Part shown: piece by piece, positions 4,269-48,858 of the stretch
Numbering within the stretch: position 1 is the stretch's first letter
Layout: each line of letters begins with the position of its first letter
The notes under the pieces: model-generated
Databases searched by the model: none
What the model saw: the letters and a program-made list of their open reading frames with translations, nothing else
What the model was told of the DNA's origin: nothing
DNA from: Leptospirales bacterium
Lineage (GTDB): Bacteria > Spirochaetota > Leptospiria > Leptospirales > Leptospiraceae
Length of the DNA: 64,000 nucleotides
NCBI GenBank assembly: GCA_013297885.1
Contig: JAAFIR010000030.1
Coordinates: forward strand, 1 to 64,000
Direction: 5' to 3'
Made by a program: the position numbers and the translations under genes

Positions 4269-5426
4269 ATGAATCAGAGTTTTCTTTTTTTACTTTTATC
4301 ACAAGCGATAATTCAAACAGGTAACATATTATTCGCTGCGACAGCAACTCTAATTGCTCTAGAATTGTCAGAAGATCAGTCTTATAGTACAATACCTATT
4401 TTTTTAAATGTATTATTTACTTTAGTTATGACTATTCCTGCCTCATTACTTTTTGAAAGATACGGAAGAAAAAAAATATTTCTGTTCGGATTCACACTAG
4501 CTTTAATTTCATTGATTTTTTTTACCACAGGAATTTATCTAAGGAATTATTTTATATATAGTATTGGAGCATCAATATTTGGAGTTTGTTCTGCAATTGC
4601 AAATTACATTCGATACTCGGCTGTCGAAATTTCTAAACCTGAATTTAAATCTAAAGCTACTTCTTTAATTCTATCAGGGGGAGTTCTTGCAGCTTTTGTA
4701 GGTCCAAACTTGTCGATTTGGGGGCTTTATTTTTATACTCAACATGAATTTCTTGGCGGCTATATCCTGATGTTTATATTATTTTTATTCGCAATGATAC
4801 TTCTTTTGAAAGTTCAATTTTTAGAAAATTCGTCTTTTGATTTAAAAAAGAAATTAGCCTTTAAAGAGTTACTTCAAAACATAGTCTTACAAAAAATTAT
4901 CGCTCTCAGCATGATCTCTTATTGGGTTATGATTTTTATTATGTCTGCAACACCCTTAGGAATGAATCATTTGGAATACTCTCGTGAGTCGATAGCAAGT
5001 GTCTTGCAATACCATGTTCTAGGGATGTTTGTTCCTTCCTTTTTTACTGGAAGCCTTATCAAAAAATTTGGCGTACGTTCTATTATGTTCCTAGGCTGCA
5101 TTCTTTGCTTAGCTTGTGTCGGAATTAATTTCATGCATCATACACATCATCATTTTATACCTTCGCTTATCTTACTTGGAATTGGTTGGAATTTTTTATT
5201 TGTAGGCTCGACATTTTTTCTCACAACAAAAATTCATGCAGAGAACCAATCGAAGTCACAAGCCTTAAATGATTTTATGGTATTTGGTTTTGTGGCAATT
5301 TCTCTCGCATTTACAGGAAAAATCCACAAGATTCTAGGATACCAAAATTTAAATCTAGTTACAATTCCTTTTATATTAATCGCTTTTTATCTAATTTTTC
5401 AATTGAGCAAAAAGGAAAATGTTTAG
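4269..5426 (+). CDS. MFS transporter
   Basis: A 385-aa integral membrane protein with about 11-12 hydrophobic segments. The cytoplasmic loop between helices 2 and 3 carries FERYGRKK (residues 63-70), the MFS loop motif, and SLIKKFGVRS in the second half repeats it. The substrate is unknown. It starts 47 nt after the previous gene, with no clear Shine-Dalgarno sequence before the ATG at 4269. Its DNA uses more GC-ending codons (CTC, GGC, ATC) than its neighbours and it is followed by a long gene-free stretch. This could reflect relatively recent acquisition. Confidence 0.8.
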   Translation: MNQSFLFLLLSQAIIQTGNILFAATATLIALELSEDQSYSTIPIFLNVLFTLVMTIPASLLFERYGRKKIFLFGFTLALISLIFFTTGIYLRNYFIYSIGASIFGVCSAIANYIRYSAVEISKPEFKSKATSLILSGGVLAAFVGPNLSIWGLYFYTQHEFLGGYILMFILFLFAMILLLKVQFLENSSFDLKKKLAFKELLQNIVLQKIIALSMISYWVMIFIMSATPLGMNHLEYSRESIASVLQYHVLGMFVPSFFTGSLIKKFGVRSIMFLGCILCLACVGINFMHHTHHHFIPSLILLGIGWNFLFVGSTFFLTTKIHAENQSKSQALNDFMVFGFVAISLAFTGKIHKILGYQNLNLVTIPFILIAFYLIFQLSKKENV

Positions 5427-5868
5427 ATAAAATCCTATCTTTATTTAAATAAATTAGAACATACTAGATTCCAAGAATAGTAAAAAAACTTTACTTTATA
5501 ATAATTTACTCTAAACTCCAAAAAATAAAATTCAAAATATATAGATAAATCTGAATCATGTTAATCTAATCTGGATAGCCTTGTTTTTTTTTATTTAGTA
5601 AAATCAAATAAAATTAGATCTAATTTCTATTTATTTTAAGGGATCAGATTTCAGATGTAATACAAAACTTTACAAATTCAAAACAGCAATAATGAAGAAT
5701 GTCAATTTGATAGAAAGTTACAGTTTCAACAAAGAATTGAAGTTGGAATGATATTTTATTATCTTAAAGTATACTATCATTTTATGATAGTATCGCAAGA
5801 CAAAAGTATTATCAATCAAATTAGCTTAAGCTTAAGGAAAATTCAAGTAAGGACTCGCCAAAGAATTT
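5427..5868. other. gene-free stretch between convergent genes
   Basis: About 440 bp of A/T-rich sequence between the MFS gene and the outer-membrane-like gene. I see no ORF with coding character. It contains a strong palindrome at 5771-5793 (listed separately). Near 5847 the text AAGTAAGGACTC also occurs at 27618-27629 in one arm of a composite repeat, so this may be an eroded copy of that family. A weak 5-bp hairpin just after the MFS stop is followed by TTATTT. Confidence 0.5.
5771..5793. promoter_or_regulatory. perfect 10-bp palindrome, role unknown
   Basis: The arms ATACTATCAT (5771-5780) and ATGATAGTAT (5784-5793) are perfectly complementary with a TTT loop. No U-run follows on either strand, so it is not a classical terminator. 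It could be an operator or a bidirectional RNA hairpin between the two convergent genes. Confidence 0.4.
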
Positions 5869-6765
5869 TTACAAACTAAATTGCAAGCTCATACCAAAAT
5901 TTAAAATCAAATTTCCAATTCTCATATCTAATCTTCGTGAAGATTGGTCTTCTTCTAATCGTTCGATAAGAAGTAATTGATAAATCTGATCTAAGTTTCC
6001 AGGAGAGTCCTGTGATATGGGGGCTTGGTTTGCTTGGTTATTTGAGAGACCGGTTATTGTTCCATTTGGATTTATGTAAATAGAGCTTTGGGAATTATTT
6101 AAGGAACCGTTAAAATATGGCACAGTATAATAATTGTAAAATAAACCAGTTTGAAATACAAAATTGTTAAAAATTTTTTTGTTAAAACTAAAATCCATTC
6201 GATAGCCCAAACCATTTCCTACAAGAAAACCTTTTTGTTCTGAGTAACCTAGAACTCTATTATAGTTGTAACCAGATGTAATCCACGAAACAGTATTTAT
6301 TCCCATACCAACACCAGCCTCTAAAAAAAAATTATTAAATGGAAAAATGAAATGATATGTTATAAATATAAAATCTGCTTTAATTCTAAAATTAAGTTCT
6401 GTTTGAGAATTTAAACTATTTTCATAAAGTTTTAATCTTTCAAAATTTGATCCACCAAATACAAAACCCATTTTGGAATTATTAAAAACTTTAACTCTTC
6501 CGAAAAATTCTTGGTGAGTTGAATTTTTAAAACTACTCAATGTCGTATAATTATAAATTGTAGAATAATCATTTCTAAAATTTTTTAGTTCGGTTTCAAA
6601 TCTATCATCTGGTTTATATCCATAACCTAATCTAAAACCAATATCAAAATTTTTTTTTCTAATTAGATCTTCTGCAATTGTGGGTTCATCTTCTTCTATT
6701 GTTACTTCTTTTTTATTCTGAGTAAGAATAGGTAATAAAAAAAAAAGAAAAAATACTATCTTCAT
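5869..6765 (-). CDS. predicted outer-membrane beta-barrel protein
   Basis: A 298-aa protein with an N-terminal signal peptide (MKIVFFLFFLLPILTQ, cleavage near residue 16-18). An acidic linker follows, then a series of short alternating hydrophobic/aromatic strands rich in Phe, Tyr, Asn and Gly. It ends with aromatic-plus-leucine residues (SLQFSL), as expected for an outer-membrane beta-barrel. A less regular, Gln/Ser/Asn-rich loop lies near residues 215-265. No family is recognised. It ends the run of minus-strand genes; the histidine-kinase gene upstream stops 39 nt before its start. Confidence 0.6.
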   Translation of the reverse strand: MKIVFFLFFLLPILTQNKKEVTIEEDEPTIAEDLIRKKNFDIGFRLGYGYKPDDRFETELKNFRNDYSTIYNYTTLSSFKNSTHQEFFGRVKVFNNSKMGFVFGGSNFERLKLYENSLNSQTELNFRIKADFIFITYHFIFPFNNFFLEAGVGMGINTVSWITSGYNYNRVLGYSEQKGFLVGNGLGYRMDFSFNKKIFNNFVFQTGLFYNYYTVPYFNGSLNNSQSSIYINPNGTITGLSNNQANQAPISQDSPGNLDQIYQLLLIERLEEDQSSRRLDMRIGNLILNFGMSLQFSL

Positions 6766-36344: not shown

Positions 36345-37643
36345 TTATGGTTGAAATTCAGAATTTAAAATAATCCAATCATCAGAATTTCGATTGTACC
36401 AATATTTTTCTTCATAATAAATTCCAGCAATAAATTCGATAATTTTTTTCATATAAGGCTCACCTGGATCAAAATCTTTTCCTACTAATGCAACTGAGCC
36501 ACCAAATCTTTTTTTGGCTTGAGTGTGTGAATAAATTCCGCTAAGGGATTCAATATTAAAATTATTTTTTGAGATATTATATTTTTTACAAATTGAATTT
36601 GTTATAGAAGCAACTTTTAAAAATTGAATTTCATTATTCATCAACTCTTCAGTATTCTTGCCAACAATTTCTATTTGAATACAATGCTCATTTGTACCAG
36701 AAGCAGCTTGTGCTAAATGTTTTAAATTATCTAAAAGTTGATATGCTTTTCCATCTTTATCAACCATAATACTTGCTGATAATTTTCTTCTTTCTAGGGT
36801 ATCTTGTGAAATTTTAAAACTTGAAATTGCTGTAAAATGTAAAACTATACATGATGGATTAATCAACTTTTTAAAAACATATTTTAATCTATAATTTTCA
36901 GGAGTAAATCCAAAATCATCTTTTTCGAGTTCTTCTAATTCTAATTTATCTTGTCTAGTTAATTCTCTTCCATTTGTAAAAGGTATTTCTGGACTTTGTA
37001 TTTTTTTTTCTTTTCTAACAATCCAATTTTTTTCATAACGATTTATCCAATTTTCTTCAGCTGTATAATCTTTTTTTAACTCGATAAATATTTTTTTTAA
37101 AATACTTTCTATTCCATTATCATTTAAATCAACAAAGTTACCAAATTTTTTCTTAACTTGTAAATTTGTAAAAATTCCTTTTTTTGATTCGATGTCTGAA
37201 TTTGAAATTGGAATTAAAAAATTTTCAGATAAAAATAAAATTATCTGTTTACATAAATCAATTTGTTTTTCATTGTTTAAAATTTCTTCTTCAGTTCCTT
37301 CAAGTGAAAGATGAATTGTATCTATATCTAATTTTGGTGTGGCTCGAGATAAAATTTGATGTGGGTTTTTAAATCCATAAATTTCACCTGATTTCGAAAT
37401 AATTAATTGAACTAAAAAATCTGATTGAATAGATTTTTCTATATATTCTTTTGAAGTCATACCTTTTGTATAATGGATGGTAATTGAATTAATTTGATTA
37501 TCTCTTAGTAAAATTTTTTTATTTTTATAATCAATATTGTTTATTAATTTTTCAAAACTGATTACTTCAAAAGGGAAAAATTCTAAATTTTCTTTAATTT
37601 GGACCCTACAAAAAAGTAATATTAAAATTAAAATATATTTCAT
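36345..37643 (-). CDS. double amidase_2-like lipoprotein
   Basis: 432 aa. The N-terminal MKYILILILLFC is a likely lipoprotein signal with C12. Two N-acetylmuramoyl-L-alanine amidase/PGRP-like modules follow. Module 1 (about 45-190) has NSITIHYTKG and GFKNPHQILSRA but lacks the C-terminal His and DPG of the zinc site (reads IFTNLQVKKKFG). Module 2 (about 255-410) has CIVLHFTAI, QAASGTNEHCIQIEIVG, YSHTQAKKRFGG and DFDPGEPY, so its zinc ligands could be complete. Peptidoglycan binding or cleavage in the periplasm is likely. It is the last gene of the four-gene operon, 1 nt after the DUF4956 gene. Confidence 0.7.
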   Translation of the reverse strand: MKYILILILLFCRVQIKENLEFFPFEVISFEKLINNIDYKNKKILLRDNQINSITIHYTKGMTSKEYIEKSIQSDFLVQLIISKSGEIYGFKNPHQILSRATPKLDIDTIHLSLEGTEEEILNNEKQIDLCKQIILFLSENFLIPISNSDIESKKGIFTNLQVKKKFGNFVDLNDNGIESILKKIFIELKKDYTAEENWINRYEKNWIVRKEKKIQSPEIPFTNGRELTRQDKLELEELEKDDFGFTPENYRLKYVFKKLINPSCIVLHFTAISSFKISQDTLERRKLSASIMVDKDGKAYQLLDNLKHLAQAASGTNEHCIQIEIVGKNTEELMNNEIQFLKVASITNSICKKYNISKNNFNIESLSGIYSHTQAKKRFGGSVALVGKDFDPGEPYMKKIIEFIAGIYYEEKYWYNRNSDDWIILNSEFQP

Positions 37644-37644
37644 C

Positions 37645-38298
37645 TTATTCCTTTTTAAATTTTAATGAATAAATATTGTTCAAAAAATCTATTAAAATAT
37701 CTTCATAAATTGTATTAACTTTATTAATTGAAATTAATATCTCATATTCAAAATACAATTTAATTTCATCAATATAATTAATTTTGATTTGAAATTTATT
37801 TTTTGAGAGAAATTTTTCGAATTCAATTCTATGTTGTTTTGTTTTAAATTCAATATAAATTATATATTTTTCAGTTTCATTTAACTTCATTTTTAAGAGA
37901 ATAAATTGGCTTAAGGAAACTAAAAAAAAACTGAATATTGTTAGTAAATAATATCCAGAACCAGCTGAAACCCCCATGATGATTGAATAAAAAAATAAAG
38001 TAGTGTCTTTTGGATCTCTCATAGTCGTTCTAAACTGTATAAAACTTAATGAACCAAAAATACCAATTGCTAAAGCAAGATTTTTTCCTAAAACATTTAT
38101 CATTATGGCAAAAATGATTGTTCCAAGTATATGAGAATGAATTTGAGATTTTTGAATTTTAGTGTGTGTTGTTAAAACAGTTATGAAGGATATAGAAAAA
38201 GCAATGATAAAAGAAAAAGAAATTCTTAACATAAACTGAACTAAATTAAAATTTTCTTTTTCAATAAAAAAATCTTTAAATAAATTTTCTATTTCCAT
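37645..38298 (-). CDS. DUF4956 membrane protein
   Basis: 217 aa. Four hydrophobic segments (about 20-43, 53-70, 72-90 and 103-133) are followed by a cytoplasmic domain (about 140-217) with alternating strands and helices. The signature GSLSFIQFRTTMRDPKDTTLFFYSIIMGVSAG matches DUF4956, whose members often occur near polyphosphate-polymerase (VTC) or CotH genes; none is here. Its ATG shares one base with the stop codon of the giant gene (TAATG), so translation is coupled. Function is unknown. Confidence 0.75.
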   Translation of the reverse strand: MEIENLFKDFFIEKENFNLVQFMLRISFSFIIAFSISFITVLTTHTKIQKSQIHSHILGTIIFAIMINVLGKNLALAIGIFGSLSFIQFRTTMRDPKDTTLFFYSIIMGVSAGSGYYLLTIFSFFLVSLSQFILLKMKLNETEKYIIYIEFKTKQHRIEFEKFLSKNKFQIKINYIDEIKLYFEYEILISINKVNTIYEDILIDFLNNIYSLKFKKE

Positions 38299-41200
38299 TA
38301 TTTTATAAATACATTAGTATAAGGTTTATATCCATTCCAAAACCTGTCTTCTTTTAAATCAGATTGTAAATTAGAAATTGCATCTAAATATCTTTCTTCG
38401 TAGGGAAGTCTATAATCCAAATTTTTAAAAAAAGTTTTTATAAAATAAGCATCATTAATATCGATCTGATGACCTGAACTAAGAACTGAAGGACCAATAT
38501 GAATTTTATCTAAGTAAAAGATTGAATGTACAAAATCATCATTATGGAGTGAAGTTTGTTCAAGTCTTGAATTTGATAGAAACCAAAAACCTTCTCTTTT
38601 TATTTTTGAATCTAATTTTAATAAATTAATATTTGAAAATAAAATTTCTTTTCCCTTTTCTAATTTTAATTCATCTTGAATAATATTCTTAGTTCTACCA
38701 ATTCCTTTTCCGGATAAGAATTTAGTTTCAAGTTTTTCTAATTTAATTTCGGGTGAAATTTTTTCTTGATAACTTAAATGATTAATTTTAAAACTTGGTA
38801 AAAAATCTTTTGATGAATCATAAACATTTCTATCTACCATCAATTCTGGACTTAAAACATAATAAAAATTATCTTGCTCAACAGGAACTATACAAACTTT
38901 AAAATGATAAGAAGGTAAATAGATATAATCAATTTTATTTTTAGTAAATTTTAAAACAGATTTATATCTTTCTTCTAAAAATTCTTTTTTTGAAACTTCT
39001 AACCCACCATTTTTAACAGAATACAAATAATCATAAACTTGAAATTTTATATTACGGTTATCAGAAAAAGCTTCTTCAAGTAAAATTGTTTTATCTTTAA
39101 TCTTAACCAAATGTGTTTTGATACCAAAATCAATTAATGAGGAAAATACTTGCCCTTCTGGAAGTTTAGATTCAATTTTTTTTGCAATTTCATTTAGTTT
39201 TGGTAAATCAGAAAAATAAACTTTTCTTCCTAAAACTTTATCATTAACTGAATGAATTTTTTCACGTGCAAAACCAATATCTAAATACAAATAATAGTTT
39301 TTATTTTCTATAGCTTTTTTCTGTAAAATATTGATAAAATCATCTAACTCCCTTGAATAAAAAACATCTAATTTTTCTTTTTTTAAAGAAAGAATTAATT
39401 CATTTAATAAATTTAAATTTGGATTAGTTTCAATTTTTTCATAAAAAGAATAAAACTGATTTAATTCTGATTTAACTTTTTCTCTATCAGATTCAGTAAA
39501 ATTTACATCTGGAAAAAATTTTGATAATTTATATTTTAAATTATAATACATTGATGCTAAATTTTTTTCAGGATAATAATCGTTGAATTTATCATCAAAT
39601 TCTAAAAAATATTTCTTTGAACTTTCTAAATCTCCTCTGCTTTTTAAAGCCGATGCCCAAACAATTTGAAACCACAAAGCTCTATTTTTATTGTTTAAAC
39701 TTCTTTCAGTTTCGAGTAAAATATCAAATTGATTATTTAATTCTGTACCAACTTGGTAGTTAATTGATTTGACTAATAAATAAAATAAAAAATCTCTTTC
39801 AGAATCTTTTAATAAAAATAACGCTGATCTTCCATCTTTTAAAAATAAAGGACCAAGAGTAGTTGGTTCAAACTCAAAATTATTTTCTAATGAATCATAA
39901 GCATCGAGTAATCTTTCAGAATAAGATTTTTTATTTGTATTCGCTTCATAAATTGAAATTTCTTTTGATTTTTTTCTATATTCATCCCAAATTCTATTAT
40001 CAGCTAAATAAAAAATTTTTTCTTTTGATACAGAATCTGGGTTTTTTCCTTTTACAAAAAATATCTCATATTCTAGATCAGAAATTTTATTTTCTACAAT
40101 AAATTTTTCAGTTGGATTTTCAGCTAATTTTAAAGCTTCATTTAAATGAATTCTAGCTTTATCCCAGATAAAACCTTTTGCAAAAAGAAAAGCTAATCGA
40201 TTATTAAATAAAAATTTATCTTCTGCATTTTCTAATAAAATAAATTTTTGGTATTCTGAATCAACAAATTTTAAATTGCCTTCTCGAAGATTCTTATAAT
40301 ATTCAATTATAAATTTTTTATCTTGAGTAGCATTTTCATTTGATTGATATTTGGAATAATATTTTCTACAATCAACTTCAATCGGGGCTTCATAACAGCT
40401 TACCAATAAATTATACAGGATTGTTTCTTCTTCTTCTTTGGTGATATTAATTTTTTCCAAAAGTGTTTCATAATAATTTAAATATTTATTTCTATTTGGA
40501 TAAGCTTTTGTTTTTAGTTTTGCTAAATTTGATTCAGATTCAATTTGAAGTTTTTCATTACTACTTGGAATGACTGAATTCGCAAGCATCAAATTTTTCA
40601 TAGCTTCTGAGTAATTTCTTTTTCTTTCAAATTTTGTTGAAAGTCCATAATACTTTTTAAACTCATTTTCATAAATTTTTTCACTTTCAGGATAAGGATT
40701 AAGGTATTCACCAATTAAAAATAAATTCTTCTCTTTAATAATTGTAGATGCATCTTTCATATTTGAAAGAATTTGATCTCTAGTTTTTTGATTTTCTTCA
40801 TTAGATTCTAATAATAAAATACTTTGGACTCCAGCAAATTGAAGTATATCATATAAAAAAGCAACCTTAATGAAATTATCTTGGTTTTTATTAAAATTAC
40901 TAAGAATAAAAAAAGGTATAGTCCATTCTTCATCCAATAATTCTTTAATATGAATATGACCTGGTTTTTTTTCTCCAATATAATGTTTTCTATTTGAGAA
41001 ATCTGTTATACCTTCTAAAACATCTGTATCTGTTAAATAGTTTTTTAGTTCATTCGATTGTATAATTCTTAAATTCAAATCCTTTGCGTTTTGTTTTAAA
41101 CTAGGTTTTTCAAAAACAAATTGAATCGGATTTAAACTAAAACTTTCTTCTTCAAGTTTCGGAATTTCGGGGATAATAGCTGTTAAACGTTTTAATCTTG

Positions 41201-44200
41201 AAAACTCAGTTGTTGATTCACGTTTTAACTGTGATACTCTAAATAGATGTCTTACCGAATAAAAATCAGAAAGTTTTTTTGAATTAAAATTAACATTAGC
41301 AAAATTATATCTATAAAAAAATGGAGAAGGAATAAAAAGAAGTTTTTTAACTTTTGGATATGATAATAATCTTAAGTTTAATTCTTCAGATATTTTTTCT
41401 AAAAGACTTTTAGTTTTAATATAAGTTTTTGAAGAACGTTTGCCTTCATAATTGATTATTTCAAATATTTCTTTTCCATCAGAAAAATACTCTATTAATA
41501 ATTCATCTGAATTTAATTTAGGGATAAAATCTTCTAATTTATCATTCCACCAACTAGAGCAATCCATGCCTTTGGGTAAACTTGAATTAAATTTATAAAA
41601 TATAGTTTTAATTAATTCAGAATTAATAGATTTTTCTTTTTGAAATTTACTTGAATCTAATTTGTTTAAATTATATTCTTCAATTTTTAATTCTAATTCT
41701 TTATCTTTCCACATCAAATTTTGAACTCTGTTCAAACTATTAAATAATTCTTTATTTGGAAAATTTATTTCATTTACTAATAATTGTCTAAAAAAGATTA
41801 TTGAATAAAATTTTTCTCTATTCTTCTCAATTTCGATTAGATTTTTTTCTTTTATCAAATTATTTGTTTTAATTGAGTAAATATATTGTAAAAAAACTTC
41901 ATCTATTTCGTATAAAATACCTGGATTTTCTTTAATTATTTTTTCTGATAAAGAAAAATAATCAGTGGATTTTTTGAAGTCATTTTGTTTGTAATAAAAT
42001 TCAGAATTTAAAGTATAAATTGAAAGTAACTCTTTAATAAGTTGATATTCCTGAGCAACAAAATAAGCTTCTTTTAAAATTCTAACAAATTCATTTTTAT
42101 TACCTAATCTTGCTTCTACTATTGCTGACATTACTTTAAGTTTAACTCTTTCTCTTGGAGAAAATTTATCTATATCAGTTCCAATTTCTTCAGAAGAAAT
42201 TCCTCCAGCTTCTTTAAATAAATTTTTTGCGATTCCATAATCATTAAAAGCTAAGTCAAAATCAGAATCAGTTCTATAAATTTCACCTAAATAAAAATAA
42301 TTATAACCAAGAAATACATCAAAATTGTAATAATCAGAATTGAATTTCTGATTGCAATATTCATTTTTTTCACCATCGATTTCTATTTTTTCTTTTAAAC
42401 AATTTTGTAATTCTTCCAATTTAAACTTATTTAAAAATTTAATATTATTTTTTAATTCATTCAAAATTTTTTCTTTTGAATCTGAGTTTTGTTCAATATG
42501 TGAATATAATGAAATATCAGATTGAACATAAGATTGAAATGCTTCTTTAGTTTTATTTTTCTTTTTTAAATCTTCATATTCTTTTGTGTAAAGTCTTGCT
42601 GCTTCAAAATAATTTCCTCTTAAAAATTCATTATAAGCTAGTTCAGAAAATTTATTATTTAAAATTACTTCTCCTAGAAAAGTATTTTCTAATTTATTTT
42701 CTTTAATAAATTTTTCTCTAGATAGAATTTCTTTATTTGATTCTGTAAATTCGTTTTTTTCAGAATAGTTCATGATTTTAATTCCACGTGTTACAAGGTT
42801 TTCAAAATCAAGTGGCATTTTTCCCGGAAAACGATTTTTTCCATTTACTCTGATTTTTTCTGGTAAAGCAATATTACTAATTAGATTACTGAAGCTAAAT
42901 TTTTCTAACCTTTCACCTATTGATTTTTTAAATTTATATTTTTTCTCAGCATTTTTTAAATATAACTCAGATTTTTTATAATCCCCAGTTTCTTGGTAAC
43001 AAATTGCTAATGAATTATATAAACTTATATCATTAATATAATCTGATTTACCATTCATTGATAATGAAGTTGTTAAAGGAGGAATGGCTTCTTTAAAATT
43101 TTTTTGTTCCATTTCAACTAATCCGAGAATTGCAGAAAGTAGTGCAATTTTTTTCTTAGAATTATCAATTTTTAAGTTTAAATACTTATTTGAATCATTT
43201 GTTCCTATCGAAGATAATAATGGAAAATATTCTTGTTTATAATAAATATCTAGAGCTTTTTTTAAAAAAGGTTTTGCTTCATTTAGTTTTTCTAAATACA
43301 AATTAACTCTTGAATAATTATAATAGAAAAGAGCTTTTTGTTGATAAGTTTCAAATTGTGCTTTGTCTAAAATATTTTTAGATAAATTTTCTACTTTTTC
43401 ATATTGAAGAATTGACTTTTCATCTTTACCAAGTAAAAAATAAATATTACCTAAATTCAAATGTAAATCTGAAAGAGCTTTTTTATTTTTATAATTTTTT
43501 CCTGTATACTGAATAATTTGATTAAATAACTCTTCAGCTTCTTCTAAATATTTTAATGGAAAAAATTGGTTATACAAACTTCTAAACACCACTCCATCAA
43601 ACTCAGCTTCAGGAAAAACTTGTTCAGATTTTCGAACATCAATGTATTGGTACATCCAACCAAGTAAAAGATATGCATCTGTATAATTTGGATTTGCATA
43701 TAATATCCAAAGTAGTTCACTTTCTGCTTTTTTCAAAGTAGTTAAAATGTTTTTTTTTCTTCGAAAAGTTAGTGCATTTTCATCAATATAAAAGGATTCT
43801 TCTTTAGCTGCCTGTGTTACTAAAAAATAAGCATAACCAAATATTGTTGCATATTCTAAATTTTCTCTAGCTGATTTACTTCTTTCATCAAAATATTCTT
43901 CTATTTTTTTAAACGAGGATTCATCAGTAGGAGTTAAGTTTTGTAAATCTCTAAAATCCCCAAAATACCTAAAACCTGACCAAGAAAAAGCTAGAGCTAA
44001 ATTTTCAGTAAAATTTCCAAGTAAATCTAATCTATTTTTACCTAATAAGTTCAGTTTATTAAATAAATTTTTATTTGAAGCTTCTGTTTTAAATTGATCA
44101 AATTCAAAACTAGTTTCTATCATTGCTTTTTGGTAATAGGAAGAATAGTTTTCGTAAATTTTATCTATCGGTAATTTTTTTTCTTTTGAAAAAGATAAAA

Positions 44201-46289
44201 TTAAATTATTATTTCTAAAATTTGAAATTGATTCATTAAATTTTTCATTTCTTTTGTATTCTCTTGCTTTACTTTCAAAATAAAAAAAAGCATTTTCAAA
44301 TTCCTTAGTTTTTATAGGAACCTCAGTTCTATAATCATAATCTTTTATAAATGAAATTAGTTCATCATTAGATTTAGACTCGTCTTTTAAATCTCTAAAA
44401 TTATCTATTTTTAATAATTTAGTTTTTAAATATATAAAAGAACTTTTTTCTAATTTTGGTAGGTATGAATCAGCCAAAGAATTACTTTCTTCAAATTTAT
44501 CCTTTTCATTAAGGATAATTGCATTTGAGTATTGAATTGCTGCAAATGCTTCAGGACAGTTTTTTTCTAAGTCGTAATTTTTTTGATATAATATAGCAAG
44601 TTCATTTTTTTCTTTGAAATTACCTTCATTAGAAAAATTTTTTAAAATTGACTCAAGAATGACACGTTTGTCTTCTGGATGAGATTTTTTATCGTTTAAT
44701 ACTTTTATAAATTCATTTGGAATTTTTGTTTTATCTAATCTATATTCAAGAACAGCTTCTTTTCTTTTAATTTCATTTAAGCGATGAAAATTTGGATACT
44801 CTTCTCTAATTTTTTGATAAAATTTTTCAGCTAGTTTAATATCTAAAATAGAATAAAAGTCAGCTAGAAACATTAAAATTGTTGGTGGAATATCTTGATG
44901 CACTTCAGAGTGTTTCATTTTTTCATAATAAGATAAAAGTTCATTAGAAGGATTTAAAGAATTAAATAAATTCTTTTGATAAATCGCCATTGCATATGAT
45001 AAGCCTTTTTGTTTATCGTATTTAGTAGAAATCATTTTAGAATAGATTTTTTCTGCATTTTTAACATCACCTTCTTCAACAAAATCTATATATAGCTGTC
45101 TGTCTGCACGAGATCTGTATAGAGGATATAAATAATCATCTTTAAAATATTCATATAAGGATTCATAAGCTAATTTATAAAATTCAGATGAATTTCTTCT
45201 AAACTGTTTTGCATATTCATATTGTTCATTAATATCTGAAAGTTTTGGAATTGCACCGGAAACAGGAATAAAATAAATATTTAATGCGTTATTGATCGAA
45301 GCAGAAAATAAAATGGAACCACCATTAAAATTGGAATACTTAGTATCGAATAACGATAGTAGTCCCGTACTTAATTCTCTTTCTTCACCTGTTTGTAAAT
45401 TTTTTCTAATTATAAAAGCATTATCTCTTTCATCTAATTTTTTATTTCCATTTGTATCTTCTCTAATTGAAGTATAATATAAAAATTTTTGATCATCAGA
45501 AACTGAAGGATTAAAGTCCATAAATTTATCAGAAGTAATTCTTTTTTCTTCTTTTGAATTTAAATCAATAGAATAAATCTCGCCGAGTTTTTCATCTTGA
45601 TAAGATAAAAAATAAACTTTTTTTCCATCTGCAGAAAAGCTAGGACTTGTTCCCCCTTTTGAACTTAACTTAGTGATCTTAAAATTATCTTTAGTATCAA
45701 TTAAAGCTAAATTTGGAATTTCTGAACTAAATTTTTTTGTGCTAAAAACAATATATCTTCCATCGGGAGACCAAGAAGGATCTGAATCAAATTCTCGTTT
45801 TATTTTTTCAGGACTTGTAGTATCTGGATTTGTTAAAAAATTAAAACCTTTATCGATAATTTTCCAATCACCTTTTAAATATTTTTTTACAGCATCCTCA
45901 ATTTCTAAATTTACAATTACAATATCACCTTCTGAATCATATCTTTCCGAAACAAATGCTAAAGTTTTTCCATCAGGACTAATACTTGGTTTAAATTGTG
46001 GAGCTGGGTGTTCAGTAATTGGAACAACAGTAGAACTTTTTAAATCTCTCATATATATATCAAAATTGCCTTTTGTATCTGAAGAAAAAAATAAATATCT
46101 TCCATCTTTAGTTGTAGAATTATAAATATTATTTCCCCTTCTAACTGTTAAAGGAAATGGTTTTTCATTTTGATAAGTAAAATATGTTTTCTCTATTGTT
46201 TCATAATTAAATTCAGAAGGAGAATATTTTTTAGTAAATAAATTTAAAACAGAACAATTAACAAAAAAAAGTAAGATTAAAAATTTCAT
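38298..46289 (-). CDS. giant TolB-propeller / TPR / degenerate-CHAT lipoprotein
   Basis: 2663 aa, by far the largest gene in the window. MKFLILLFFVNC predicts lipidation at C12, hence an envelope location. Residues about 50-350 are PD40/TolB-like propeller blades (SPDGKTLAFVSER, WSPDGRYIVFSTKK, SADGKKVYFLS, SDDQKFLYYTSIREDTNGN). From about 370 to 1520 there are many TPR-like helices (e.g. LGNIYFLLGKDEKSILQYEK; NSLAICYQETGDYKKSELYL). A CHAT-like region lies about 1560-1860: IIEYFSDGKEIFEII-type start, KLLFIPSPFFYRYNF, IPFFILSNFN and AGVQSILLLE. The catalytic His (HG) and Cys (LSAC, here LSNF) are not present. More TPRs follow, then a second CHAT-like end (about 2330-2663: IDYIYLPSYHFKVCIVP, GPSVLSSGHQID, RFWNGYKPY). 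Probably a scaffold rather than a protease. Confidence 0.75.
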   Translation of the reverse strand: MKFLILLFFVNCSVLNLFTKKYSPSEFNYETIEKTYFTYQNEKPFPLTVRRGNNIYNSTTKDGRYLFFSSDTKGNFDIYMRDLKSSTVVPITEHPAPQFKPSISPDGKTLAFVSERYDSEGDIVIVNLEIEDAVKKYLKGDWKIIDKGFNFLTNPDTTSPEKIKREFDSDPSWSPDGRYIVFSTKKFSSEIPNLALIDTKDNFKITKLSSKGGTSPSFSADGKKVYFLSYQDEKLGEIYSIDLNSKEEKRITSDKFMDFNPSVSDDQKFLYYTSIREDTNGNKKLDERDNAFIIRKNLQTGEERELSTGLLSLFDTKYSNFNGGSILFSASINNALNIYFIPVSGAIPKLSDINEQYEYAKQFRRNSSEFYKLAYESLYEYFKDDYLYPLYRSRADRQLYIDFVEEGDVKNAEKIYSKMISTKYDKQKGLSYAMAIYQKNLFNSLNPSNELLSYYEKMKHSEVHQDIPPTILMFLADFYSILDIKLAEKFYQKIREEYPNFHRLNEIKRKEAVLEYRLDKTKIPNEFIKVLNDKKSHPEDKRVILESILKNFSNEGNFKEKNELAILYQKNYDLEKNCPEAFAAIQYSNAIILNEKDKFEESNSLADSYLPKLEKSSFIYLKTKLLKIDNFRDLKDESKSNDELISFIKDYDYRTEVPIKTKEFENAFFYFESKAREYKRNEKFNESISNFRNNNLILSFSKEKKLPIDKIYENYSSYYQKAMIETSFEFDQFKTEASNKNLFNKLNLLGKNRLDLLGNFTENLALAFSWSGFRYFGDFRDLQNLTPTDESSFKKIEEYFDERSKSARENLEYATIFGYAYFLVTQAAKEESFYIDENALTFRRKKNILTTLKKAESELLWILYANPNYTDAYLLLGWMYQYIDVRKSEQVFPEAEFDGVVFRSLYNQFFPLKYLEEAEELFNQIIQYTGKNYKNKKALSDLHLNLGNIYFLLGKDEKSILQYEKVENLSKNILDKAQFETYQQKALFYYNYSRVNLYLEKLNEAKPFLKKALDIYYKQEYFPLLSSIGTNDSNKYLNLKIDNSKKKIALLSAILGLVEMEQKNFKEAIPPLTTSLSMNGKSDYINDISLYNSLAICYQETGDYKKSELYLKNAEKKYKFKKSIGERLEKFSFSNLISNIALPEKIRVNGKNRFPGKMPLDFENLVTRGIKIMNYSEKNEFTESNKEILSREKFIKENKLENTFLGEVILNNKFSELAYNEFLRGNYFEAARLYTKEYEDLKKKNKTKEAFQSYVQSDISLYSHIEQNSDSKEKILNELKNNIKFLNKFKLEELQNCLKEKIEIDGEKNEYCNQKFNSDYYNFDVFLGYNYFYLGEIYRTDSDFDLAFNDYGIAKNLFKEAGGISSEEIGTDIDKFSPRERVKLKVMSAIVEARLGNKNEFVRILKEAYFVAQEYQLIKELLSIYTLNSEFYYKQNDFKKSTDYFSLSEKIIKENPGILYEIDEVFLQYIYSIKTNNLIKEKNLIEIEKNREKFYSIIFFRQLLVNEINFPNKELFNSLNRVQNLMWKDKELELKIEEYNLNKLDSSKFQKEKSINSELIKTIFYKFNSSLPKGMDCSSWWNDKLEDFIPKLNSDELLIEYFSDGKEIFEIINYEGKRSSKTYIKTKSLLEKISEELNLRLLSYPKVKKLLFIPSPFFYRYNFANVNFNSKKLSDFYSVRHLFRVSQLKRESTTEFSRLKRLTAIIPEIPKLEEESFSLNPIQFVFEKPSLKQNAKDLNLRIIQSNELKNYLTDTDVLEGITDFSNRKHYIGEKKPGHIHIKELLDEEWTIPFFILSNFNKNQDNFIKVAFLYDILQFAGVQSILLLESNEENQKTRDQILSNMKDASTIIKEKNLFLIGEYLNPYPESEKIYENEFKKYYGLSTKFERKRNYSEAMKNLMLANSVIPSSNEKLQIESESNLAKLKTKAYPNRNKYLNYYETLLEKINITKEEEETILYNLLVSCYEAPIEVDCRKYYSKYQSNENATQDKKFIIEYYKNLREGNLKFVDSEYQKFILLENAEDKFLFNNRLAFLFAKGFIWDKARIHLNEALKLAENPTEKFIVENKISDLEYEIFFVKGKNPDSVSKEKIFYLADNRIWDEYRKKSKEISIYEANTNKKSYSERLLDAYDSLENNFEFEPTTLGPLFLKDGRSALFLLKDSERDFLFYLLVKSINYQVGTELNNQFDILLETERSLNNKNRALWFQIVWASALKSRGDLESSKKYFLEFDDKFNDYYPEKNLASMYYNLKYKLSKFFPDVNFTESDREKVKSELNQFYSFYEKIETNPNLNLLNELILSLKKEKLDVFYSRELDDFINILQKKAIENKNYYLYLDIGFAREKIHSVNDKVLGRKVYFSDLPKLNEIAKKIESKLPEGQVFSSLIDFGIKTHLVKIKDKTILLEEAFSDNRNIKFQVYDYLYSVKNGGLEVSKKEFLEERYKSVLKFTKNKIDYIYLPSYHFKVCIVPVEQDNFYYVLSPELMVDRNVYDSSKDFLPSFKINHLSYQEKISPEIKLEKLETKFLSGKGIGRTKNIIQDELKLEKGKEILFSNINLLKLDSKIKREGFWFLSNSRLEQTSLHNDDFVHSIFYLDKIHIGPSVLSSGHQIDINDAYFIKTFFKNLDYRLPYEERYLDAISNLQSDLKEDRFWNGYKPYTNVFIK

Positions 46290-46879
46290 TCTTTTCTAGA
46301 CCATTTATTTTTTTTAATTTCAAAAAATTCTCCATCTTCTACTTGGTAGAAATATAATAATGGAATCAAATTTTTTCTTTTGAGTTTTTCTTCATCTTTT
46401 AATTCTTTAGTTTCTAAAAGTTCCAATTTTTTTAAATACAAAATTTTTCTTGATTCGTTCAATAACTTAAGAACTTCCTCAACTCTAATTTTGTATTTTG
46501 GAAATTCTTTAAAATTTGTTGTATCTTTAATATTTGGTAAAATTTTTGCTTCACCATTTTGAGCTTCACCAACAAATTCTTTTTTTTTGAACTGTCTTAA
46601 TTCTGGGGCTAGATAAGAAATATTTTTTAAAGATAAATATGTTGTTTCATCCAAAAAATCTTTTGGAATATCTTCATCTAAAATTTCTTTTTCCCAAATG
46701 CTTGAACCAGTAGCAGAAGTCCTCATTGAAGAAACGAGCCAACCTTCTTTTTCTAAATTTTTAGAATCCCCAACCATCTGTCTTTCATTTGCAGTTGGAC
46801 TTGCTGTAAAAGTAACATTTTTCAAATTCAAATTAATGAGACCACAATTTAAAAAAAGCAAAACAAAAATATATTTCAT
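46286..46879 (-). CDS. DUF1318-like lipoprotein
   Basis: 197 aa from ATG 46879: MKYIFVLLFLNC gives lipidated C12. The following SPTANERQMVGDSKNLEKEGWLVSSMRT resembles the TAxExQxxGxxxxLE motif of DUF1318-like lipoproteins; this match is from memory and moderate. The remainder is charged and helical (KYKIRVEEVLKLLNESRKILYLKKLELLETKE). The frame extends 11 codons upstream but without a signal peptide. It overlaps the giant lipoprotein gene by 4 nt and is the first gene of the operon. Confidence 0.6.
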   Translation of the reverse strand: MKYIFVLLFLNCGLINLNLKNVTFTASPTANERQMVGDSKNLEKEGWLVSSMRTSATGSSIWEKEILDEDIPKDFLDETTYLSLKNISYLAPELRQFKKKEFVGEAQNGEAKILPNIKDTTNFKEFPKYKIRVEEVLKLLNESRKILYLKKLELLETKELKDEEKLKRKNLIPLLYFYQVEDGEFFEIKKNKWSRKE

Positions 46880-46989: not shown

Positions 46990-47126
46990 GGGCAATTTTT
47001 TTTATGGAAAAAATCAAATAAAAGAGAAATAAATTCATAATATTTTTCCATAAAAAAATCAGGCTTTCAACTCTCGTAAAAAAATTTTATACAAAATTTT
47101 TTTACGCCGTTTCAATCCTTATTGCA
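46990..47126 (+). repeat. composite palindromic intergenic element, copy 8
   Basis: Box 1 GGGCAATTTTT (46990 on); hairpin 1 outer arms TTTTTTTATGGAAAAA/TTTTTCCATAAAAAAA; box 2 TCAGGCTTTCAACTCT (47059-47074); hairpin 2 arms CGTAAAAAAATTTTA (47075 on) and complement ending 47106; box 3 CCGTTTCAATCCTTATTGCATAG (47107-47129). Box 3 runs into the 3' end of the patatin gene, whose stop codon is at 47119-47121. Confidence 0.8.
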
Positions 47127-48858
47127 TAGTATTAAAAAATAATTTTTTAATTTCAGAAATATTTTTTTTTGCTTCCTCTTCTCCTTTTTTTATAATCGCT
47201 TTATAAGACCTAAAATCAAATAGCTGAAATTCTTCCATATGAAAATGAACAAATAAATCCATTTCAGTTTTTTTTAACTTCGTAATTTCTCTTCCTTCTA
47301 ATGTTATTGTTCTAGTCATAATTTGTAAAATGGGAGGATATTTTATTTGTTCCCAAAGATATCTAAAAAATGATTTATCAGAGTTTGCTCTATCATCAAA
47401 TAATTTTACTGGAACAATTTCATACATTGGAGAAACATTTACACCTAATATTATATCAGCACCTTTTTCACGAATTAAATTTTCAGGAACATTATTGATG
47501 ATCCCTCCATCAACTAAAATTTTTTCGCCAAGCCTATAAGGTGGAAATGCTCCAGGCAAACTCATTGCTGAAGTAAGTGCTTCTGTAATTGGACCTTTAT
47601 CAAAAATATGTTCTTTACCTGTTTGTAAATCTATAGCTGATGTAACAAATGGAATATTTAGTTCTTCAATTCTTTTATCTCCAAAAGCATTTTTTAACAT
47701 TTGTTTCATATTCTTACCTTTAAAAAAAGAAACAAAAGGAAGAGTGGGGTCAAATGCAGATTCAATTCCTCCAAAAAATTTTTCAACTTTAATTTCAATT
47801 TCAGCTACACTTAAACCATTTGCATATAATGCTCCAATTACAGCTCCGAAAGAAGCACCTGAAATATAATCAAATTTAATTTTTTCTTTTTCTAAAACTT
47901 TTAATAATCCAACATGAGACAATGCTCTTGCACCACCTCCACCTAAACTTAGTCCTCTTGTTTTTGAAATTAAAGTTCTAGCTAAACTATCTTTATTTTT
48001 AAAAGTTTTAATGTTCATTTTTTCTTCATAATTTTTTTTTGATTCAGTAAAATAAATACTTCTACCAAAAAAATTTCTTATACGAGGAAGAAAAAATTCC
48101 ACTTTCGAGTTTTTATCTTGAACTAGTGTTTCAGGATTTGGATCATGAAATATTATAAAATCAGATTGTATGATAAGTGAGATAAAACTTTTTGCTTCTT
48201 CAAAATTATCAACATAAATTGATACTAAATTATATTTAGTTCTAATTTTTGTTAGTTCTTCACTAAGTCTATAAACATCTAAGTTTAAAAATTTTTTAGC
48301 TTCAAATAGAATACTAAATTCTTTTTCAGATTCAAAATTTTTATGAATTTCTAAAATTTCTTTTTTAAATTCAGAGTTAATTTCTAAAGGTATATGAAAA
48401 AATAATCTTTTTGTGATTTTTTTCTTAAAAGATTTATCTTCCATATGAAATCTCATTCTATTTGCCATAAGTTTAATTATGTTCTTGGAAAAGTTTTTTT
48501 CACTTGATGCCAATTGTAAAAATAATTTTCCAGGAATTTGATAAACTAAGCTATCTATAATAGCAATCGCAGAACTAGAGTGGTTGTTTTCACTAATTAA
48601 AGAGTTTTCTCCAATTAAATCTTTTGCAGTAAGAAAAATGGTTCCAGATTCATTTTCAATATTAATTTCTCCATATCGAATAATAAAGATATTTTCAGAT
48701 CTTTCACCTTTTAAATATAAAATTTCTTTACTGCGAATTAATTTTTCTGTGATTTGATTAGCAATTTTTTGAAGTGAAGCTTTTTGAATTGCTTCAAAAA
48801 TTGGGATGGTCTTCAGGAATTTAAGGATATACTCAATTTCTTTAGAACTCTTTTTCAT
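47119..48858 (-). CDS. cyclic-nucleotide-binding patatin-like phospholipase
   Basis: A 579-aa NTE/RssA-like enzyme. Residues about 15-135 form a cNMP-binding (CAP_ED) domain (IPIFEAIQKASLQKIA, GEINIENESGTIFLTAKDLIGENSLI). A linker domain follows (about 140-300). The patatin domain starts at GLSLGGGGARALSHVG (oxyanion hole), has the nucleophile elbow GASFG with S336, and the catalytic D450 in VDGGIINNVPE. It hydrolyses (lyso)phospholipids, probably under cyclic-nucleotide control, at the inner membrane. The start has AGGT about 7 nt upstream. The last residues overlap a composite repeat. Confidence 0.88.
   Translation of the reverse strand: MKKSSKEIEYILKFLKTIPIFEAIQKASLQKIANQITEKLIRSKEILYLKGERSENIFIIRYGEINIENESGTIFLTAKDLIGENSLISENNHSSSAIAIIDSLVYQIPGKLFLQLASSEKNFSKNIIKLMANRMRFHMEDKSFKKKITKRLFFHIPLEINSEFKKEILEIHKNFESEKEFSILFEAKKFLNLDVYRLSEELTKIRTKYNLVSIYVDNFEEAKSFISLIIQSDFIIFHDPNPETLVQDKNSKVEFFLPRIRNFFGRSIYFTESKKNYEEKMNIKTFKNKDSLARTLISKTRGLSLGGGGARALSHVGLLKVLEKEKIKFDYISGASFGAVIGALYANGLSVAEIEIKVEKFFGGIESAFDPTLPFVSFFKGKNMKQMLKNAFGDKRIEELNIPFVTSAIDLQTGKEHIFDKGPITEALTSAMSLPGAFPPYRLGEKILVDGGIINNVPENLIREKGADIILGVNVSPMYEIVPVKLFDDRANSDKSFFRYLWEQIKYPPILQIMTRTITLEGREITKLKKTEMDLFVHFHMEEFQLFDFRSYKAIIKKGEEEAKKNISEIKKLFFNTMQ

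Follow-up and report, generated by a model that had tools for sequence, protein, structure and literature searches.

A giant spirochaete lipoprotein with two predicted CHAT-type folds lacking the catalytic dyad motif, and its genetic link to AsmA-like proteins

What role could a CHAT module play in a protein that carries a lipoprotein signal and lacks the residues expected for catalysis? The question is raised by a gene in a 64,000-nucleotide stretch of contig JAAFIR010000030.1 (GenBank assembly GCA_013297885.1, from a Leptospirales bacterium), hereafter the window, in which a single open frame with full-length relatives (38298..46289, minus strand) encodes a giant lipoprotein of 2663 amino acids. 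A first-pass annotation had described one CHAT-like module without its catalytic His and Cys in this protein, and had considered a lipid-anchored pseudo-protease serving as a scaffold to be unusual. As argued below, we give about even chances to the giant acting without catalysis, from a lipid anchor, as a scaffold in a spirochaete system of AsmA-type lipid transfer between the membranes.

Positions 40700-41620 of the window, where the module was first placed, correspond to residues 1557-1863 of the giant, and the strings quoted in that annotation are present there. Residues 1490-1875 (40665..41822, minus strand), which comprise this module (module A) and its helical lead-in, were modelled with AlphaFold2 from an alignment of 26 members of the order, at a predicted local distance difference test score (pLDDT) of 82.1 and a predicted template modelling score (pTM) of 0.80. 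The strands in this model include KLLFI (1649-1653), VLEG (1757-1760), FFIL (1793-1796) and, after an intervening helix (1803-1819), SILL (1823-1826), and their succession in the model is that of the CHAT elements IPxG, HxATHG, LSAC and AGxxSV; we infer that VLEG is the strand on which the HG motif would be expected. All 11 Foldseek matches with E<=0.001 were to the TPR-CHAT protein Csx29 of Craspase (best 1.4e-8), and a second structural comparison likewise gave Csx29 first (Z 15.3 over 287 residues, root-mean-square deviation 4.8), followed by separase and then DdvA (Z 10.2 and 10.0), with the first row beyond the group of Csx29, separase, central-pair proteins and DdvA at Z 8.3. The comparisons of the modules with Csx29 are of structures as aligned ranges. 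Judged from the predicted structure, residues 1490-1875 have a CHAT/separase fold, above chance, and the CHAT order annotated for residues about 1560-1860 is borne out.

The annotated module is thus real, but the description was incomplete, as it missed both the genetic link described below and a second CHAT-like module (module B) formed by the C-terminal residues 2280-2663 (38301..39452, minus strand). The model of module B, built from a 27-row alignment, has pLDDT 89.4 and pTM 0.90, and fits the CHAT fold better than that of module A: a Foldseek match to a Csx29-type chain at 2.4e-6 was accompanied by Z 22.2 to Csx29 (336 residues, root-mean-square deviation 4.3), with separase (Z 18.8), a central-pair chain (15.3) and DdvA (14.3 and 13.8) next, and with gingipain (10.5) and caspases (about 6) lower down. 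By sequence alone, the evidence for CHAT in the window protein is weak. Pfam CHAT (PF12770) gave no match to it even at E<=1, and when the order alignment was compared with CHAT seeds by hhalign, module A reached E 0.002 over 66 columns and module B 0.016, with 0.059 for A against B and 0.15-0.16 for controls. As such, the case for CHAT rests on structure and on the relatives, in which PF12770 can be recognised directly.

All three distant full-length relatives that were scanned, which lie outside the class and have frames of 2254-2572 amino acids with propeller, TPR and CHAT parts, matched PF12770 over cut-off (1.8e-8, 3e-6 and 5.2e-14). Closer to the window, all but one of the 30 order genomes gave matches to the whole protein, a few of them perhaps through the propeller only, and a profile of module B matched 25 of 48 genomes of the class, all within the order, and 28 when the 392 genomes of the phylum were searched; a distant relative used as query matched 129 of these 392 genomes, weak matches counted. 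To judge from these matches, the giant's architecture is common to much of the phylum, and the supposedly unusual protein is not a one-off. An open frame of 11,060 amino acids in one relative was discarded as an artefact arising from a run of N. Searches of open-licence PubMed Central (PMC) for texts with both 'CHAT domain' and 'spirochete', or both 'CHAT domain' and 'pseudoprotease', returned none.

The giant is, in its predicted structure, CHAT-like by fold and not a CHAT protease. In module A the LSAC position is occupied by LSNF (residues 1796-1799), as annotated, and residues 1590-1880 contain no Cys at all, with His at 1681, 1769, 1778 and 1780; since the module is devoid of Cys, an intact dyad at shifted positions is not possible there. 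The sole Cys of module B, Cys2466, lies just past the strand equivalent to IPxG and outside the expected nucleophile strand. We scored a strict pattern (His-Gly/Ala/Ser plus S-x-C) in 61 modules A and 61 modules B across the phylum, taken from an alignment of 22 rows from the order and 39 from outside it, and found it in none of either, while 28 of the modules A and 25 of the modules B have no Cys whatever. Alignment of the modules over such distances is uncertain; the absence of Cys is certain regardless. The same pattern is present in 21 of 21 CHAT seeds, but these had been preselected by an S-A-C motif, and so the control demonstrates no more than that canonical dyads are recognised. One could still suppose that the giant is a working CHAT protease whose dyad is unusual or has been relocated, given that the whole fold is kept in both modules and that a looser version of the dyad motif is present in one of the 61 modules A and in four of the 61 modules B; among 183 windows drawn from the TPR region as background, however, 3 carry the looser version as well. 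With no Cys in module A, a misplaced one in module B and the strict motif in none, we reject an active protease as very improbable, and for module A it is close to refuted.

Other CHAT proteins were seen in passing. The only PF12770 match in the whole of the window's own genome is a protein of 597 amino acids on contig C17, over cut-off, with HYAGH and NSC at the expected dyad places, and matches of 600-670 amino acids resembling it recur across the class. Two further spirochaete CHAT proteins of about 980-1000 amino acids (loci L138 and L139) match PF12770 without an S-A/G-C motif; the former reads HFSSG and HIADLHI, and the two may represent another dyad-less CHAT group.

The giant is a bacterial lipoprotein, with lipidation predicted from a lipobox Cys after a signal peptide (residues 1-12, 46254..46289, minus strand), in keeping with the signal first annotated. 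Cys12 is invariant in 25 of 25 rows of the order and is Cys in 56 of the 61 phylum rows, the remainder being two gaps and three other residues. Behind it follow a PD40/TolB-like beta-propeller at about residues 46-356 (45222..46154, minus strand; Pfam PD40 3.2e-29, five stretches) and TPR repeats, recognised at residues 941-1114 (42948..43469, minus strand; TPR_12 1.6e-15, TPR_2 7.4e-7). The propeller scores 1.5e-25 and 90 bits against the NCBIfam TolB model (TIGR02800), below the curated cut-off of 343.

The evidence that connects the giant with lipid transport is genetic. Its start codon overlaps, in the sequence ATGA, the stop of a gene for a small lipoprotein of 197 amino acids (46286..46879, minus strand), a relative of the DUF1318 family that shares the invariant Thr, Glu, Gly, Trp and Asn of a 26-row alignment. 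Of 17 named loci, which derive from metagenome-assembled genomes of Leptospiraceae, Leptospirales, Spirochaetaceae or Spirochaetia, 13 have such a gene upstream of the giant. When seven of the small lipoproteins were scanned with Pfam, five were over the cut-off for DUF1318 and one relative was below it. Upstream of the small lipoprotein, relatives encode an AsmA/DUF748 protein of 900-1050 amino acids; AsmA was over the Pfam cut-off in 5 of 9 of these upstream proteins and the NCBIfam LIC_11026 family in both of the two scanned against it. The usual order is therefore a triad of AsmA-like gene (LIC_11026 family), DUF1318 lipoprotein and, third, the giant. Among 392 genomes of the phylum, 102 have both giant and AsmA-like protein, 1 the giant only (a genome 78% complete), 13 the AsmA-like protein only and 276 neither, where the giant set consists of matches to the distant-relative query with E up to about 2e-10 plus six identified through module B or their frame length. 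Thirteen of the 102 genomes that have both proteins, all of family f14, were left out of the count of the triad, which covers the other 89; in 55 of these an AsmA-like gene sits on the same strand, 573-895 bp upstream of the match to the giant. These 55 fall among the 62 genomes of the order and of families f12, f23, f31, f35, f39, f41 and f46, with 5 of 8 in f1, 17 of 18 in f2 and 33 of 36 in the other families just named taken together. No open-licence PMC text names LIC11026, LIC11027 or LIC11028, and the matches listed there for DUF1318/YdbL include no spirochaete titles.

The genome that contains the window has two giants (in the window and on contig C65), which are 31% identical to one another, two AsmA-like genes (on C38 and C62), both over the cut-off of the LIC_11026 family, and two DUF1318 lipoproteins (in the window and on C62, there directly after the AsmA-like gene). 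The arrangement on C62 is not singular: in four of eight further stretches an AsmA-like gene is followed by a motif-bearing small lipoprotein with no giant adjoining, of which two are from genomes with a giant elsewhere, one lies beside a second AsmA-like copy in a genome with the triad, and one is from this same genome. A fifth of the eight stretches resembles these pairs, by eye only.

Several of our observations weigh against a role in AsmA-type lipid transport. The genome that the window comes from has a split triad, with the AsmA-like genes on other contigs and a patatin gene upstream in the window, and the small lipoprotein encoded there has no Pfam match. The 4 of 17 named loci without a small lipoprotein are more distant second copies of the giant. 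The triad was found in none of 16 genomes of families f3-f6, none of 8 of f14 and none of 3 of f17/f26; in 20 of these 27 genomes the giant and the AsmA-like gene are on different contigs and in 7 they are on the same contig but apart. Over all 34 genomes without the triad the corresponding numbers are 26 and 8, and since the hits are on different contigs in 26 of 34, some of the absences may be undecided. The co-occurrence (Fisher's test, p 2.7e-78) was calculated ignoring phylogeny and after 28 weaker giant matches, none with an AsmA-family match, had been dropped; with these counted as giants the table becomes 102, 29, 13 and 248. Last, the YdbH model (PF11739) gave no match in the window's own genome with a positive E. 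coli control, and in one relative scored 14.2 bits, short of the cut-off, and as such the AsmA-like protein is not proven to be YdbH.

Even so, two dyad-less CHAT folds in a protein whose gene is linked to that of a putative lipid bridge between the two membranes argue that the giant probably serves as a scaffold in the envelope rather than as an enzyme, in agreement with the earlier idea of a pseudo-protease scaffold, and its association with genes for an AsmA-like protein and a DUF1318 lipoprotein points to intermembrane lipid transport. We regard as firm the fold of both modules (as predicted), the loss of the dyad motif, the lipobox, the gene triad, the co-occurrence, and the finding that YnbE (PF13617) is in none of 30 genomes of the order with a positive E. 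coli control; we infer physical contact between the giant and the AsmA-like protein, the membrane in which the giant is anchored, lipid transport itself, and the binding of a partner by the CHAT modules. It is reasonable to postulate that the giant would face the periplasm from its lipid anchor, presenting a TolB-like propeller, TPR solenoids and two CHAT folds, the latter presumably retained as structural or binding modules with a docking or gating role, catalysis having been lost before the families split. Together with the DUF1318 lipoprotein and the AsmA-like protein it would form a counterpart of the E. coli YdbH-YnbE-YdbL phospholipid bridge, in which it would probably stand in for YnbE, the outer-membrane partner that is missing here, by holding or capping the AsmA groove at its far end and by gating how the bridge assembles. 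Our more specific proposal, that the AsmA-type bridge of spirochaetes is built or regulated with the giant as an outer-membrane lipoprotein which replaces YnbE and docks the bridge through two fossil caspase-fold domains, is tentative, and we would put it at somewhat better than one chance in three. Were it true, an ancient pseudo-protease would have been recruited into membrane lipid transport. The triad offers a directly testable candidate, and the CHAT family, of which chiefly active proteases are known, gains two lipid-anchored folds that lack the dyad and have been retained for a long time.

The remaining neighbours of the window gene bear on a broader possibility. Downstream, the start of a gene for a DUF4956 membrane protein (37645..38298, minus strand) overlaps the stop of the giant in the sequence TAATG, and the next gene in the same direction (36345..37643, minus strand) encodes a protein with two stretches matched to Amidase_2 in Pfam. 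This coupling of a peptidoglycan amidase gene to the giant, along with the TolB-like propeller and the TPRs, would suit a general periplasmic scaffold for some other trans-envelope machine (secretion, motility or coupling to the cell wall in the manner of TolB/Pal), with the AsmA-like gene as co-regulated housekeeping. Neither the DUF4956 nor the amidase gene was found adjoining the giant in 27 loci searched, however, for which reason a general link to them was rejected, whereas many families preserve the order in which the giant follows the AsmA-like and DUF1318 genes; we hold this explanation to be rather unlikely, at around one chance in four. Directly upstream of the small lipoprotein is a gene for a cNMP-binding (cyclic nucleotide monophosphate-binding) patatin phospholipase (47119..48858, minus strand), in the place where many relatives carry the AsmA-like gene. 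Locus L211 likewise has a patatin gene close to the giant, and L212 one of similar sequence. Just past or near the giant in L210, L211, L212, L214 and L221 is a FecR-like protein of about 350-400 amino acids (Pfam FecR in L210), and in L217 genes with pseudopilin-like N-termini (4456-5945) are directly downstream of it.

The giant might otherwise be an envelope sensor or regulator, in which propeller and CHAT folds monitor the envelope, partners receive its signal and the triad neighbours serve as output. The extracytoplasmic domain of DdvA, a structural match to both modules, offers a possible parallel, and in some families proteins with FecR domains or of the response-regulator/SpoIIE phosphatase type are encoded after the giant. 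These neighbours are nevertheless absent beside the window gene and occur in only part of 16 neighbourhoods, and the giant accompanies AsmA-like and DUF1318 genes with much greater regularity; a sensor is accordingly a doubtful prospect, less probable than the general scaffold, and we continue to prefer a scaffold of AsmA-type lipid transfer.

Several known systems resemble the giant in part. TolB shares its PD40 propeller, but is itself without the remaining parts of the architecture and is not a lipoprotein. DdvA (8rw5, 8rot), a transmembrane anti-sigma factor for which open-licence PMC holds no text with both 'DdvA' and 'anti-sigma factor', is likewise not a lipoprotein of such architecture. 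Separase and the axonemal C1 central-pair proteins (7n6g_1N, 9ijj_B) have, like the giant, a CHAT/separase-type fold after helical repeats; they are, however, eukaryotic, and separase is active. The best structural match to both modules, Csx29/TPR-CHAT of the type III-E CRISPR system Craspase, also has TPRs followed by a CHAT fold. Csx29 is described as a cytoplasmic, active, CRISPR-linked protease (PMC10028731, PMC9729208), unlike the giant, which is a lipoprotein with two dyad-less modules; no CRISPR effector was seen in the stretches read.

The closest functional parallel is the E. coli system. YdbL belongs to the DUF1318 family. In E. coli as in the spirochaete triad, an AsmA-superfamily protein, a DUF1318 protein (in the window, a relative of that family) and a lipoprotein (the outer-membrane one in E. 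coli) are encoded together. The E. coli locus is ydbH-ynbE-ydbL (PMC8593681), and YdbH with the outer-membrane lipoprotein YnbE delivers phospholipids (PMC11784454, PMC12977461); the role of AsmA proteins is treated in all three papers. The spirochaete system differs in that its DUF1318 protein is itself a lipoprotein, that its third gene encodes a lipoprotein of 2300-2800 amino acids with YnbE not found, and that the AsmA protein of the window's own genome matches the LIC_11026 family and not the YdbH model. With both YnbE and the YdbH model wanting, the giant's system is not a member of YdbH-YnbE-YdbL as defined, although by analogy it perhaps works in the same way.

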